This document shows positions 23,386 to 54,701 of a stretch of 64,000 bases of DNA, in pieces. Position 1 is the first letter of the stretch; every line of letters begins with the position of its first letter. Source of the stretch: Lishizhenia tianjinensis (GTDB taxonomy: Bacteria > Bacteroidota > Bacteroidia > Flavobacteriales_D > Crocinitomicaceae); assembly GCF_900116425.1 (NCBI RefSeq), contig NZ_FPAS01000002.1:328537-392536 (forward strand). The letters run 5' to 3'. The position numbers were made by a program, and so were the translations under genes. Under the pieces are notes generated by a model. The model was not told the DNA's origin and did no database searches. It saw nothing but the letters and a program-made list of their open reading frames with translations.

Positions 23386-23445
23386 ATTCAACAATTCAAT
23401 AATTCAAGAATTTGAAAATTTGATGGATTTGATGGATTTGAAAGA
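23386..23445. repeat. Three ATTCAANN 8-mers followed by four ATTTGANNN 9-mers
   Basis: Units run without gaps from 23386. This is the central part of a 575-base gap (23234-23808) that also holds the hairpin repeat, a TCTAGAAATCTAGG palindrome-like block near 23468, a CTTTGTGG block (about 23512-23580) and a TACTCACACTC module (23705-23752). No gene or RNA is seen in the gap. Confidence 0.9.
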
Positions 23446-23808
23446 TTGAGATTCGAACGAAATTAGATTTCTAGAAATCTAGGTGTATAGCTTCTATAAT
23501 TACTTTAGATTTACTTTGTGAACTTTGTGAAAATCTTTGGTGACTTTGTGGTTAAAACCCCGTATTATTCTTTTGCTCAATTTGATGTAGTAGACTTCGG
23601 CTCCTCGACTCCGTTATTAGATTAGCATTAAGATAAAACGATGTAAATTTGACGGTTTTAAGGGGGAAGCAATATTACACGTTTGTACTCCCTCCTCTTG
23701 CTCGATACTCACACTCATTACTGTTATTGCTCACACTCCATACTGTCTTGACAACCTCAAGTCCTTAAAATTCGTTTATTAAGTAAACAAAACTTATATT
23801 AGTCTTCC

Positions 23809-30628: not shown

Positions 30629-30704
30629 ATTCAATAATTCAAGGATTCAAGGATTCAACAATTCAAGGATTTGAAAGATTTGAAAATTTGAGGGATTTGA
30701 TTGA
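30629..30704. repeat. Five ATTCAANN 8-mers then four ATTTGANNN 9-mers
   Basis: The array starts 12 bases after the stop of the OmpA gene. It is followed by a TCTAG block (about 30722-30755: TCTCTAGAAGTCTAGG...TCTAG) like the one near 23468. The array lies between convergent genes and may double as transcript end, though no T-run hairpin is seen. Confidence 0.9.
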
Positions 30705-32087: not shown

Positions 32088-32126
32088 GTAGGGAAAGGTA
32101 TTGATTGGACTTCGTACTAGTATTTA

Positions 32127-32203
32127 GTTCATTTCTTTTGCATTGCCCTTACTTCGGCTCCGCTCAGCACGGCGCAAGAAACGAACCAAAGAAAAATCTA
32201 GGC
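32127..32203. repeat. 77-bp dispersed hairpin repeat, copy 2
   Basis: About 71 of 77 positions match copy 1 at 23294-23370, including the GTTCATTTCTT arm, the ACTTCGGCTCCGCTCAG centre and the AAATCTAGGC end. It is followed, as in copy 1, by a GGCGATT-like link and an 8-mer/9-mer array (32218-32252). Confidence 0.9.
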
Positions 32204-32217
32204 AGGGCGATTGAACA

Positions 32218-32252
32218 ATTCAACAATTTGAAAATTTGAGGGATTTGATAGA
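32218..32252. repeat. Short 8-mer/9-mer array after hairpin repeat copy 2
   Basis: ATTCAACA (32218-32225) is followed by ATTTGAAAA, ATTTGAGGG and ATTTGATAG. It has the same order of units and the same distance from the 77-bp repeat as the array at 23386. Confidence 0.85.
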
Positions 32253-32281
32253 TTGGATGATTTGGTGGTTCAATCTTCGAA

Positions 32282-32359
32282 TTAATTTCCCAGCAGTTCG
32301 GTTTGTTTATAAATTATTTGAAGAAGTCGTCCTACAAAGGAAATAAATTCAAACCTTAA
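32282..32359 (+). pseudogene. 3' remnant of a four-helix-bundle (S23) gene
   Basis: This is a copy of the last 26 codons of the S23 gene at 34586-34978: 32282-32378 matches 34901-34997 with 4 mismatches in 97, all but two silent (L to F, D to N). The reading frame and TAA stop are kept, ending YKGNKFKP. The 5' part of the gene is absent; upstream sequence is unrelated. The match extends past the stop into the 8-mer CTTGAATC, after which this copy continues as a ten-copy array. Confidence 0.88.
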
Positions 32360-32363
32360 ACAA

Positions 32364-32443
32364 CTTGAATCCTTGAATCCTTGAATCCTTGAATCCTTGA
32401 ATCCTTGAATCCTTGAATCCTTGAATCCTTGAATCCTTGAATT
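32364..32443. repeat. Ten tandem CTTGAATC 8-mers
   Basis: Nine perfect copies and a final CTTGAATT run from 32364 to 32443. The reverse complement is the GATTCAAG/ATTCAAGG unit of other islands. The array starts 5 bases after the stop of the S23 remnant and lies 45 bases before the TetR-like gene, so its length could affect that gene's promoter. Confidence 0.95.
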
Positions 32444-32487
32444 GTTACTATATGTTAAAAGCTGATTTTTAAATACTAAACAATTCC

Positions 32488-33156
32488 ATGAAAGCGTTTG
32501 TTTTAAAAAGAAAAGTCATGGAAAAAGCAGTACTACTAAAAGCGTATAAAAAGTTTGAGCTCACCAAAGGAAGATCTCCGTATTCTGTTTTTGAATTTAC
32601 CGAAGAATTGGAGGTAGAGGAAAGTGAATTTTACACGCATTTTTCGAGTTTACAACAATTGAAAAAAGTGTTTTTACGTCAGTTAGTAGATAACACGTTA
32701 AAAGCCTTGAACGAGGATGAGAATTACGCTTCATTTAGTGCGCGTGAAAAGCTTCTGGCCTTGTACTTTACTTTATTTGAACATCTGAAATTAGAACGCA
32801 GCTATTTATTGCACAAATACAATTCCAGCGATCCAAGGGTTTTGAGGGAGTTTAAAGACGATTGGAAGGATTTCTTTTTACAACTCAACGCCAGGGTAGA
32901 ACAAATACTCATGGAGGCGAGAAATGAAGAAGAGGTGGTGAATAGACCTTATATCTCCGATCATTACGCAAAAGGGTTCTACTTATTATTTACCTACGTT
33001 TATAAGGTTTGGTTGAACGATGAGTCTGACGATTTTGAAACGACAGATGCGGCTATTGAGAAATCGGTCAACTTGGCTTTTGATTTATTGGGCAAAGGTC
33101 CGCTAGATGCCATGCTTGATTTTGGAAAGTTTGCCCTAAAAACAAAAGTATTTTAA
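32488..33156 (+). CDS. TetR/AcrR-like regulator
   Basis: This 222-residue protein has an N-terminal helix-turn-helix (KFELTKGRSPYSVFEF ... EVEESEFYTHFSSLQQLKKVFLRQLV), the TetR_N pattern with YxHFxS in the recognition helix, followed by an all-helical body with YKVWLNDES. An ATG at 32518 (MEKAVLLKAY) is a plausible shorter start. The next gene follows after 1 base, and a TetR-like protein beside an ABC1 kinase is a pairing I recall from other Bacteroidota. Ligand and targets unknown. Confidence 0.75.
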   Translation: MKAFVLKRKVMEKAVLLKAYKKFELTKGRSPYSVFEFTEELEVEESEFYTHFSSLQQLKKVFLRQLVDNTLKALNEDENYASFSAREKLLALYFTLFEHLKLERSYLLHKYNSSDPRVLREFKDDWKDFFLQLNARVEQILMEARNEEEVVNRPYISDHYAKGFYLLFTYVYKVWLNDESDDFETTDAAIEKSVNLAFDLLGKGPLDAMLDFGKFALKTKVF

Positions 33157-33157
33157 G

Positions 33158-34471
33158 ATGAGTAAAGACGAAAGTGGCCAAGGTAAGATTCCCGTATCTA
33201 AGGTGAAACGCGCTGCAAAAATTATGGGAGCCAGTGCGAAGGTAGGGGGTAATTATATTAAGTATTACGCCAAGAAATCTATCAATAGAGAGTTAACCAA
33301 AGATGAGTTGCACCAAGATAATGCAGAGGATATTTACGCGTCTTTAAGTGAGTTAAAAGGAAGTGCTTTAAAGGTGGCGCAAATGATGAGTATGGACAAT
33401 CAAATGTTGCCCTCGGCTTATCAAGAGAAATTTGCCTTATCGCAATACAGTGCACCGGCTCTATCCTTTCCTCTAATATCCAAGACCTTTGTAAAACAGT
33501 TAGGTGCAAAACCCAATGATTTGTTCGATTCTTTTACCAAAGATGCTGTGAATGCAGCCAGTATTGGTCAAGTGCACAAAGCCACAAAAGATGGAAAGGA
33601 ATTGGCGGTGAAAATTCAATATCCAGGCGTGGGTGATGCCATAAGTTCGGATTTGAAAATGATCAAACCTTTGGCCAAAAAACTGTTGAATATGAAGGCG
33701 GCCGACATGGAAATGTACATGGAAGAGGTAGAGTCTAAAATGATAGAGGAGACGGATTACGAATTGGAATTGGAGCGTTCGCAATTTATTTCTGAAAAAT
33801 GTGCCTTTATAGAACATGTTCGTTTTCCTAAATACTATAAGGAGTTCAGCGCAAAAAGGGTGTTGACCATGGATTGGTTGGATGGCGTGAAGTTTCCTGA
33901 CTTCATCAAAAGCAATCCGTCGCAAGAAGTTAGGAATCAGGTGGGTCAGAGTATGTGGGACTTTTTCATGTATCAAATGAAAGAACTGCGTATGGTACAT
34001 GCAGATCCACATCCCGGTAATTTTTTGGTGGATAAAGACAACAATTTGTGCATACTCGATTTTGGATGTGTAAAGGAAATTCCAGAAGATTTTGCCGCGA
34101 ATTACTTTCAATTGTTACGTCCAGATATACTGGAAAAAGAAGAAGAATTGAAAGCGATTTTCGAGAACATGAACTTTTATAGACCCGAGGATACGCCCGA
34201 ACAGAAAATGAAGTTAAAGGCCATGATTACTCAAAGTATAGCCTTACTCGCACAACCCTTTCATGGAGATGAATTCGATTTTGGAAACGATGCTTTCTTT
34301 AAAAAGATATACGGAATGGGAGAGGATTTGTCGCAAGACAAGGAATTAAGGAAAATGAATAACGCCAGAGGAAGTAGGGATGCCATATATATCATGCGTA
34401 CTTTCTTTGGACTGTATTCTTTATTGAATCAGTTGAGGGCAAAGGTGAGGGTGAATTATAAGCCTTTTTGA
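33158..34471 (+). CDS. ABC1/UbiB-family atypical protein kinase
   Basis: The protein has 437 residues. The N-terminal KGSALKVAQMMSMD matches the KxGQ helix that inhibits kinase activity in ADCK/UbiB proteins. AASIGQVHKA is the alanine/serine-rich loop replacing the glycine loop, VKIQYPG carries the ATP lysine, HADPHPGNFLV the catalytic loop and LDFGCVKE the DFG-like metal site. Family members support quinone or lipid metabolism through ATPase activity. It is coupled to the TetR-like gene (1-base gap). ATTCAANN repeats begin 1 base after its stop. Confidence 0.93.
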   Translation: MSKDESGQGKIPVSKVKRAAKIMGASAKVGGNYIKYYAKKSINRELTKDELHQDNAEDIYASLSELKGSALKVAQMMSMDNQMLPSAYQEKFALSQYSAPALSFPLISKTFVKQLGAKPNDLFDSFTKDAVNAASIGQVHKATKDGKELAVKIQYPGVGDAISSDLKMIKPLAKKLLNMKAADMEMYMEEVESKMIEETDYELELERSQFISEKCAFIEHVRFPKYYKEFSAKRVLTMDWLDGVKFPDFIKSNPSQEVRNQVGQSMWDFFMYQMKELRMVHADPHPGNFLVDKDNNLCILDFGCVKEIPEDFAANYFQLLRPDILEKEEELKAIFENMNFYRPEDTPEQKMKLKAMITQSIALLAQPFHGDEFDFGNDAFFKKIYGMGEDLSQDKELRKMNNARGSRDAIYIMRTFFGLYSLLNQLRAKVRVNYKPF

Positions 34472-34472
34472 A

Positions 34473-34504
34473 ATTCAAGAATTCAAAGATTCAACAATTC
34501 AAGG
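34473..34504. repeat. Four ATTCAANN 8-mers upstream of the S23 gene
   Basis: ATTCAAGA, ATTCAAAG, ATTCAACA and ATTCAAGG follow in tandem. The two units after the S23 gene (34983-34998) are in inverted orientation, so the gene is bracketed like an element with terminal inverted repeats. Confidence 0.9.
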
Positions 34505-34585
34505 ATTGTTGGGGAAAGAATATTTGATTTTCAAATTAGAAGGTAATAGTTTAACTTGTAAAGACTAATCAAAACCTAAATAATT

Positions 34586-34978
34586 ATGTCGACCTATAAG
34601 AAATTTGAAGATTTGGAAGTGTGGAAAATGAGTCGTGAGCTTTGTTACGCTTTGCACCTTGCTTGTCAAAAGAAGGAGGTTCCCAATTCTGGATATCTCA
34701 TAAATCATCTATACAAAACAGCAGGAAGTATTATGGATAATATTGCTGAAGGATTTGAAAGAGGTGGTAATAAGGAGCTTTTACAGTTTTTGTATATAGC
34801 AAAAGGAAGTTCTGGAGAATTTCGATCACAGGTGTACCGAGCGCTAGACCTTGATGTTTTTTCTCAGGATCAATTTGATGGACTAATAAAGAAAAGTGTT
34901 TTAATTTCCCAGCAGCTCGGTTTGTTTATAAATTATTTGAAAAAGTCTTCCTACAAAGGAGATAAATTCAAACCTTAA
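34586..34978 (+). CDS. Four-helix-bundle protein, S23/rRNA-intervening-sequence family
   Basis: This 130-residue, all-helical protein has YKKFEDLEVWKMSRELCYAL, SIMDNIAEGFERGGNKELLQFLYIAKGSSGEF and a final helix with QQLGLFINYLKK, the signature of the S23 family first seen in 23S rRNA intervening sequences and related in fold to Avd of diversity-generating retroelements. Its molecular role is unproven. It is bracketed by inverted 8-mers (34473-34504 and 34983-34998) and has a 3' remnant at 32282, which suggests it is part of a small mobile or repeat-associated unit. Confidence 0.92.
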   Translation: MSTYKKFEDLEVWKMSRELCYALHLACQKKEVPNSGYLINHLYKTAGSIMDNIAEGFERGGNKELLQFLYIAKGSSGEFRSQVYRALDLDVFSQDQFDGLIKKSVLISQQLGLFINYLKKSSYKGDKFKP

Positions 34979-34982
34979 ACAA

Positions 34983-34998
34983 CTTGAATCCTTGAATA
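34983..34998. repeat. Two CTTGAATN 8-mers after the S23 gene
   Basis: CTTGAATC and CTTGAATA start 5 bases after the stop codon, at the same place where the ten-copy array begins after the remnant at 32282. Confidence 0.9.
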
Positions 34999-41025: not shown

Positions 41026-41041
41026 GGTGGAGTGATTTAAA

Positions 41042-41116
41042 AATTCAAGGATTTAAGAATTCAATGATTCAACGATTCAAGAATTCAATGATTTGAAAGA
41101 TTTGAAAATTTGAGGG
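41042..41116. repeat. Mixed 8-mer/9-mer array after the dehydrogenase gene
   Basis: ATTCAAGG, ATTTAAGA, ATTCAATG, ATTCAACG, ATTCAAGA and ATTCAATG are followed by three ATTTGANNN 9-mers. The gap also holds a second copy of the CTTTGTGGTTAAAACC block (about 41183-41238), which matches 23526-23580. Confidence 0.9.
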
Positions 41117-54518: not shown

Positions 54519-54646
54519 ATTCAACAATTCAAGGATTCAATAATTCAATAATTCAAGGATTCAAAGATTCAAAGATTCAAAGATTCAAGGATTCAAGGAT
54601 TCAAGGATTCAAGGATTCAAAGATTCAAGGATTCAAAGATTCAAGG
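54519..54646. repeat. Sixteen tandem ATTCAANN 8-mers
   Basis: From 54519 to 54646 there are sixteen contiguous units, NN being GG, AG, CA or TA. This is the longest array in the window. It lies between two minus-strand genes, 43 bases before the cyclase ATG in plus coordinates, so it may sit in that gene's promoter region. No 9-mers follow here. Confidence 0.95.
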
Positions 54647-54701
54647 ATTGGGCATTTGATGGAGGGAAGTATTGAATAGGGGTTGGAAGTAGGGGATTTC
54701 C

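Follow-up and report, generated by a model that had tools for sequence, protein, structure and literature searches.

Why does a small gene for an S23 four-helix-bundle protein sit between two inverted arrays of a short tandem repeat, and do gene and arrays form one unit? The question is raised by a 64,000-nucleotide stretch of the Lishizhenia tianjinensis genome (contig NZ_FPAS01000002.1; hereafter the window), in which a first-pass annotation of the bare sequence had described four ATTCAANN units 5′ and two inverse units 3′ of such a gene. We found both arrays in place (Table 1). The window S23 protein matches PF05635 as its sole Pfam family (E 6.8e-22) and scores 71 bits against TIGR02436 (cut-off 24). 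Its AlphaFold model (pLDDT, the predicted local distance difference test, 90) matched 2GSC (TM 0.8), 2RLD and the Avd structure 4DWL in Foldseek. The site is the gap between an ABC1-type kinase gene and a convergent gene, not the inside of an rRNA gene. Moreover, the window gene is one of seven PF05635 genes in this 3.56 Mb genome, every one of which lies between inverted short arrays, with a different unit at each.

We then asked how general this arrangement is, using 155 S23 loci drawn both from 100 family genomes and from named genomes that encode the closest homologues of the window protein. An arm score was obtained by local alignment of the reverse-complemented upstream flank with the downstream flank. 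Its median was 15 for a locus's own pair of flanks and 8 for other pairs, and it reached at least 14 in 63% of own pairs versus 0.7% of unrelated pairs (protein identity <0.3); in direct orientation, 15% of the loci reached that score. For 295 non-S23 control genes, taken from 412 kb of one contig of L. tianjinensis, the median was 8.5, with 1% above 14.1. Under dinucleotide-preserving shuffles, 66% of the S23 loci but 3.4% of the control genes had arms at p<=0.05, so one outcome that the first-pass annotation had named as speaking against its proposal, arrays equally common beside unrelated genes, was not seen. A separate sample of 30 genomes from the whole phylum, in which S23 is present in 235 of 296 genomes, gave 53%, a lower value that represents the phylum more fairly. 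S23 genes and inverted arrays thus go together, and most S23 genes in related genomes are flanked by them, so that the other outcome named against the proposal, a lack of arrays at most such genes, was not seen either. The units are 7–9 bp long, mostly 7, and are the same in both arms of a locus but differ between loci. The flanks of S23 loci show a periodicity of 7, followed by 8 and 9, and the peak at 7 is missing from control flanks. The recurrent structure is a cassette: a short tandem array, an S23 gene in sense with its host operon, and the same array inverted.

The same anatomy was seen in Cyanobacteria, Gemmatimonadota, Alphaproteobacteria and viral contigs, sampled from plasmid and viral records (example units GGGAACA, AGAGGTGACAGG and GGGCAGGAG). 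Plasmid-borne S23 genes with inverted arrays occur in Nostoc, Geminocystis, Calothrix, Pseudanabaena, Trichormus, Aulosira, Scytonema, Anabaena, Picosynechococcus, Leptolyngbya, Gemmatirosa and Azospirillum; on four of five viral contigs, S23 is bordered in this way as well. Arms were absent or weak at the S23 genes of Nostoc HK-01, Pseudanabaena PCC 7367 and one viral contig (L289).

The repeat motif proved to be specific to the S23 clade. Different clades of the S23 tree carry different unit classes: CAGATTGC; TTAGGCA/TTAGC; TTAGAC/AAGAC; and, in the clade of the window gene, [A/G]TT[C/T][A/G]A-type units. The motif at S23 genes at large is therefore not ATTCAAGG but depends on the clade. 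The ATTCAA-type S23 gene of Brumimicrobium relatives occupies a different site, within a polysaccharide operon. A Mantel test of protein identity against cross-locus arm similarity gave 0.30, or 0.24 when pairs with a common neighbouring gene were omitted (permutation maximum 0.07 in both), figures that overstate independence because the loci are related by descent. All four family genomes with an S23 protein at least 57% identical to that of the window carry three-unit ATTCAANN arrays, adjoining S23 in each, as against 7 of the 96 others (hypergeometric p ~8e-5, relatedness uncorrected). Recognition of the array by the protein would lead one to expect such tracking of motif class with S23 clade. 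Another way to explain the arms is that slippage repeats gathered by chance around a dispensable small gene, with S23 uninvolved. Slippage is common in short tandem repeats, and strand switching can equalise inverted arms without any protein. Nevertheless, the rarity of such arms at control genes, their presence at S23 genes in several phyla and the correspondence between motif class and protein clade even at unrelated sites make this neutral origin highly improbable.

The cassettes are placed in sense within co-directional pairs of genes. Among the 155 genes, 131 are in sense to both neighbours and 2 antisense to both, and in relatives they lie between protein genes, the recurrent junctions being sufB|sufC (21 loci), sdhA|sdhB (16), fadB|fadA (15) and sufA|sufB (12), plus smaller groups. 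Gene names given without a family search were read from the translated sequence. At atpA|atpG and sdhA|sdhB, relatives have the cassette, a short gap, or inverted arrays (a hairpin) without S23; the empty junctions seen come from genomes too distant to define exact cassette ends. The cassettes sit patchily at conserved operon junctions and decay through internal deletions, which leave arrays with or without an S23 stub. S23 proteins diverge about twice as fast as the flanking proteins and mostly in step with them; the cassettes are thus largely stable, in most cases long-term residents of particular operon junctions and not frequent jumpers. One could also imagine a homing-type element, in which the empty junction is cleaved by S23 or a partner and then receives a copy of the cassette through repair. 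Such homing would suit the patchy presence of S23 clades that keep to particular conserved junctions, the occupation of sufB|sufC by two S23 clades with different motifs, and the conserved polar residues of S23 (S48, N52, E55, R59, S75 and E78). However, neither a nuclease motif nor a nuclease-like fold is among the Pfam and Foldseek matches of the window S23, and S23 and its flanks mostly co-diverge, so that we regard homing as very unlikely.

Arrays also occur apart from S23 genes. The window has 38 occurrences of two-unit ATTCAANNATTCAA, where 0.10 would be expected, and three-unit ATTCAANN has 141 matches in the whole genome against none for the reversed pattern. The same 412 kb that served as the control region contain 31 places with ATTCAANN arrays, all intergenic, mostly unpaired and in most cases with no adjoining S23 gene. 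Only two inverted pairs were found among them, one being the S23 cassette. Many of these arrays run on into units of the ATTTGA motif, which belongs to the sister S23 gene L004. Solo arrays are present in convergent and divergent intergenic regions too, and in co-directional gaps they have no sense bias toward the neighbouring genes (~3 sense versus 10 antisense). Dispersal in the own genome is clear for the ATTCAA/ATTTGA class and modest for CTAGA; dispersal of all seven S23 motifs was rejected. A separate repeat family, a hairpin-bearing dispersed sequence (TTCATTTCTTTT..AAAAGAAACGAACCAAAGAAAA..CTAGGC), precedes several solo arrays.

These solo arrays bear on a regulatory explanation modelled on the trp RNA-binding attenuation protein (TRAP), in which an S23 ring would bind tandem units in nascent RNA or single-stranded DNA, one per subunit, and tune its own operon and array-bearing genes. 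Units made of a core plus a variable spacer resemble TRAP sites, and the motif class follows the S23 clade. Furthermore, a toroidal ring of five identical subunits is described for the solved S23 protein Xcc0516 (2GSC; PMC4990558), and a post-transcriptional role has been suggested for TAACTGA heptamers (PMC4679880). By contrast, a 3′ arm that is the reverse complement of the 5′ arm, dispersed arrays without sense bias to the downstream gene, and patchy presence at any junction do not fit, and we consider such regulation quite unlikely.

To distinguish DNA-level from RNA-level roles of the arms, we compared strand-asymmetric mismatches. If the inverted arrays paired in polycistronic mRNA and RNase III excised the S23 segment, as in intervening sequences (IVSs) of 23S rRNA, G.U mismatches should be in excess; they were not (231 G.U versus 218 A.C, p=0.57). 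An RNA stem is therefore not supported as the reason for the inverted arms, and we set that reading aside. Variable spacer positions are often mismatched between the two arms, and solo arrays outside co-directional gaps likewise argue against excision. On the other side, S23-encoding rRNA IVSs have complementary borders and are cut out by RNase III (PMC4990558), IVSs with and without an open reading frame (ORF) parallel the cassettes and hairpins with and without S23, and the 131:2 preference for sense orientation in operons would follow. Taken together, RNA-level excision seems unlikely. A reverse transcriptase acting in trans was rejected as well, because RVT_1 (PF00078) has no match in this genome, with its seven S23 genes, and matches in only 39 of the 100 family genomes versus 86 with S23.

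The lack of a G.U excess, the lack of RVT_1 and the fold match to 2GSC, 2RLD and Avd together favour arrays that are DNA-level ends bound by the cognate S23 protein. The likeliest mechanism, to which we give about even odds, is a resident selfish cassette in which the arrays are DNA ends to which the cassette's own S23 protein binds. Such an element would have no transposase of its own, and its arrays would act at the DNA level as ends and putative binding sites for S23, which would form a pentameric ring, judging by homology to 2GSC and Avd. We infer that S23 binding, combined with slippage during replication or with a switch of strands between the inverted arms, may keep the arms alike, and that the same process could allow the motif to drift and now and then give rise to arrays or complete cassettes at other places. 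Sense placement in operons would supply transcription to a putatively promoterless S23 gene. The cassette would mostly be inherited, decay by deletion and rarely move.

A candidate product of such decay lies in the window itself. The first-pass annotation had noted a near-identical 3′ copy of the S23 gene, and the match was verified: 32282-32378 and 34901-34997 share 93 of 97 positions (4 mismatches), the frame is intact across the last S23 codons (LISQQFGLFINYLKKSSYKGNKFKP, stop), and a perfect 8-mer array follows. The interpretation offered for it, that the coding end and the 8-mer travel as a unit, fits less well than the remnant of another, once complete cassette that suffered a deletion. 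The fragment has its own degenerate 5′ array at ~32209-32260 and so looks like an internally deleted cassette. The same structure is found at sdhA|sdhB in genome G068, where a 190-bp relic (L333) runs from the left array straight into the last S23 codons and then the right array, and where three genomes of the same genus (G057, G044 and G094) have a full cassette. The most plausible reading of the fragment is thus a remnant, left by deletion, of a second and nearly identical cassette. LINE-like 5′ truncation was dropped as its origin, given the 5′ array and the G068 relic. A shortened insert with its arrays kept (L257, sdhA-sdhB gap of G016) is, with L333 and its clear S23 remnant, an example of decay in place.

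Several observations weigh against a selfish element with S23-bound ends. About one-third of the loci have no significant arm pair, although arrays are often visible by eye there, and the share with arms is lower in the separate sample. Outside the ATTCAA/ATTTGA class, most motifs show no clear dispersal in their own genome, and only one S23 coding fragment besides the window gene is close to that gene in this genome. S23 mostly diverges together with its flanking genes (with correlations of 0.3-0.77 in the larger groups), and hence vertical inheritance and loss may explain most of the distribution. Co-evolution of the arms beyond common ancestry was weak only: in reciprocal closest homologues, own arms exceeded cross-arms slightly (17 versus 13, p 0.03). 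Finally, G066 has 35 three-unit ATTCAANN matches and an S23 protein only 35% identical to that of the window. This genome belongs to the same genus as G005 and G055, both with a close S23 homologue, and may recently have lost a cognate S23.

Similar to the cassettes, the S23-encoding IVSs in the 23S rRNA of Leptospira and Coxiella have complementary borders, occur sporadically with and without the ORF, and are thought to be selfish (PMC4990558). Unlike them, the cassettes lie between protein genes of operons, end in tandem 7–9 bp arrays with a clade-dependent motif, and have arms without sign of RNA pairing. REP-associated tyrosine transposases (RAYTs), with their repetitive extragenic palindromes (REPs) and bacterial interspersed mosaic elements (BIMEs), offer another parallel, a gene flanked by an inverted short repeat that is also dispersed, as the ATTCAA-class motif is in this genome. 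In RAYTs, too, the repeat class is specific to the protein clade, and the flanking copies of the dispersed repeat are inverted. However, S23 is a four-helix bundle and not a Y1 HUH nuclease, and the arrays are tandem 7–9-mers, mostly stable in site, rather than palindromic REPs; a RAYT-like activity of S23 remains an analogy. Avd of diversity-generating retroelements has a fold in common with S23 (4DWL, 8UB7), but those elements differ from the cassettes of this genome, which has no RVT_1 match.

Published intergenic tandem repeats resemble the arrays: TAACTGA (PMC4679880), GGGAATC/GGGGATT in Xanthomonas and Nostoc (PMC4692102), and the cyanobacterial short tandemly repeated repetitive (STRR) sequences. 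Xanthomonas has ~70 convergent inverted heptamer pairs of unknown function (PMC4692102). We propose that such heptamers may be linked to S23. Searches of an open-access library, with subscription papers and preprints outside its coverage, returned no report that ties S23 to such arrays, and the link is absent from the excerpts of PMC4679880, PMC4692102, PMC4990558, PMC3936711 and PMC10053308, which treat heptamer repeats and S23 in rRNA, cas loci and diversity-generating retroelements. Within that coverage, we rate the element as a new anatomy that belongs with neither IVSs, RAYT/REP systems nor diversity-generating retroelements. More tentatively, and with somewhat more doubt than confidence, it may represent a bacteria-wide class in which clade-specific repeat ends are upheld and propagated by a small ring-forming protein that has no known catalytic site, and the source of many unexplained 7–9-mer arrays in Bacteroidota and Cyanobacteria.

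S23/IVP proteins have lacked a function since their discovery inside rRNA genes, and no maker is known for the intergenic heptamer repeats found in cyanobacteria, Xanthomonas and Bacteroidota; the pairing of protein clade and repeat motif at most sampled S23 genes makes both puzzles directly testable by binding. S23 cassettes point to an overlooked, selfish-looking DNA element from which enigmatic short repeats of bacterial genomes may stem, and they provide a marker by which a hidden class of operon-resident elements can be traced. The pairing also offers a reading of 23S_rRNA_IVP genes in cas loci, where S23 lies between cas6 and cas4 or between cas10 and cmr3 (PMC3936711). Three cyanobacterial examples (L271, L277 and L279; cas6|S23|cas4 twice, cas10|S23|cmr3 once) are bracketed by inverted arrays, and such copies therefore look like passengers rather than Cas partners.

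Table 1. Cassettes, relic, solo arrays and neighbouring genes (window positions unless a contig is given), with the seven S23 genes of the genome
Feature	Position	Strand	Details
Left (5′) array	34473..34504	+	four ATTCAANN units; begins 1 base past stop codon of upstream ABC1-kinase gene
Window S23 (four-helix-bundle) gene	34586..34978	+	130 aa; PF05635, TIGR02436; unit ATTCAANN
Right (3′) array	34984..34998	-	two inverse units, TTGAATCCTTGAAT
S23 gene L004			unit ATTTGAGGG; sister of window gene, motif ATTTGA
S23 gene L001			unit GTGATAAGT; site sdhA / sdhB
S23 gene L002			unit CTAGATNT; site fadB / fadA
S23 gene L003	G000:C6:79957-80337		unit ATTTGAA; site iscA-type gene / sufB
S23 gene L005			unit AGTATTGAG-like
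S23 gene L007			unit TTAAGAA; site atpA / atpG
Relic: degenerate left array	32209..32260	+	ATTCAA/ATTTGA units; boundaries approximate
Relic: final codons and stop of an S23 gene	32282..32363	+	from alignment to window S23 gene
Relic: expanded right array	32364..32442	-	9.9 perfect copies of CTTGAATC
Solo array	54519..54649	+	16 ATTCAANN units; no adjoining S23
Solo composite array	30629..30700	+	ATTCAANN then ATTTGAnnn units, motifs of the two closest S23 paralogues
Solo composite array	23386..23447	+	ATTCAANN then ATTTGAnnn
Solo composite array	41034..41113	+	ATTCAANN then ATTTGAnnn
Hairpin-bearing dispersed sequence	~32120-32210; G000:C8 38740-38830, 72460-72550, 351830-351920		
Upstream host gene, ABC1-type kinase	33158..34471	+	co-directional with S23; context, outside element
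Downstream host gene, ORF of 322 aa	35050..36018	-	convergent; context; polyprenyl synthetase by reading of translation, no family search

One of the S23 paralogues of L. tianjinensis also gave a weak NCBIfam Avd match. L003, in front of sufB, has no in-frame ATG, GTG or TTG between the preceding stop and the domain, and may be decaying or use another start. In the sdhA-sdhB gap of G013 (L251), a 651-bp insert replaces S23; its start resembles a small nucleotidyltransferase (IAIFGSYA motif), perhaps of an MNT/HEPN pair.

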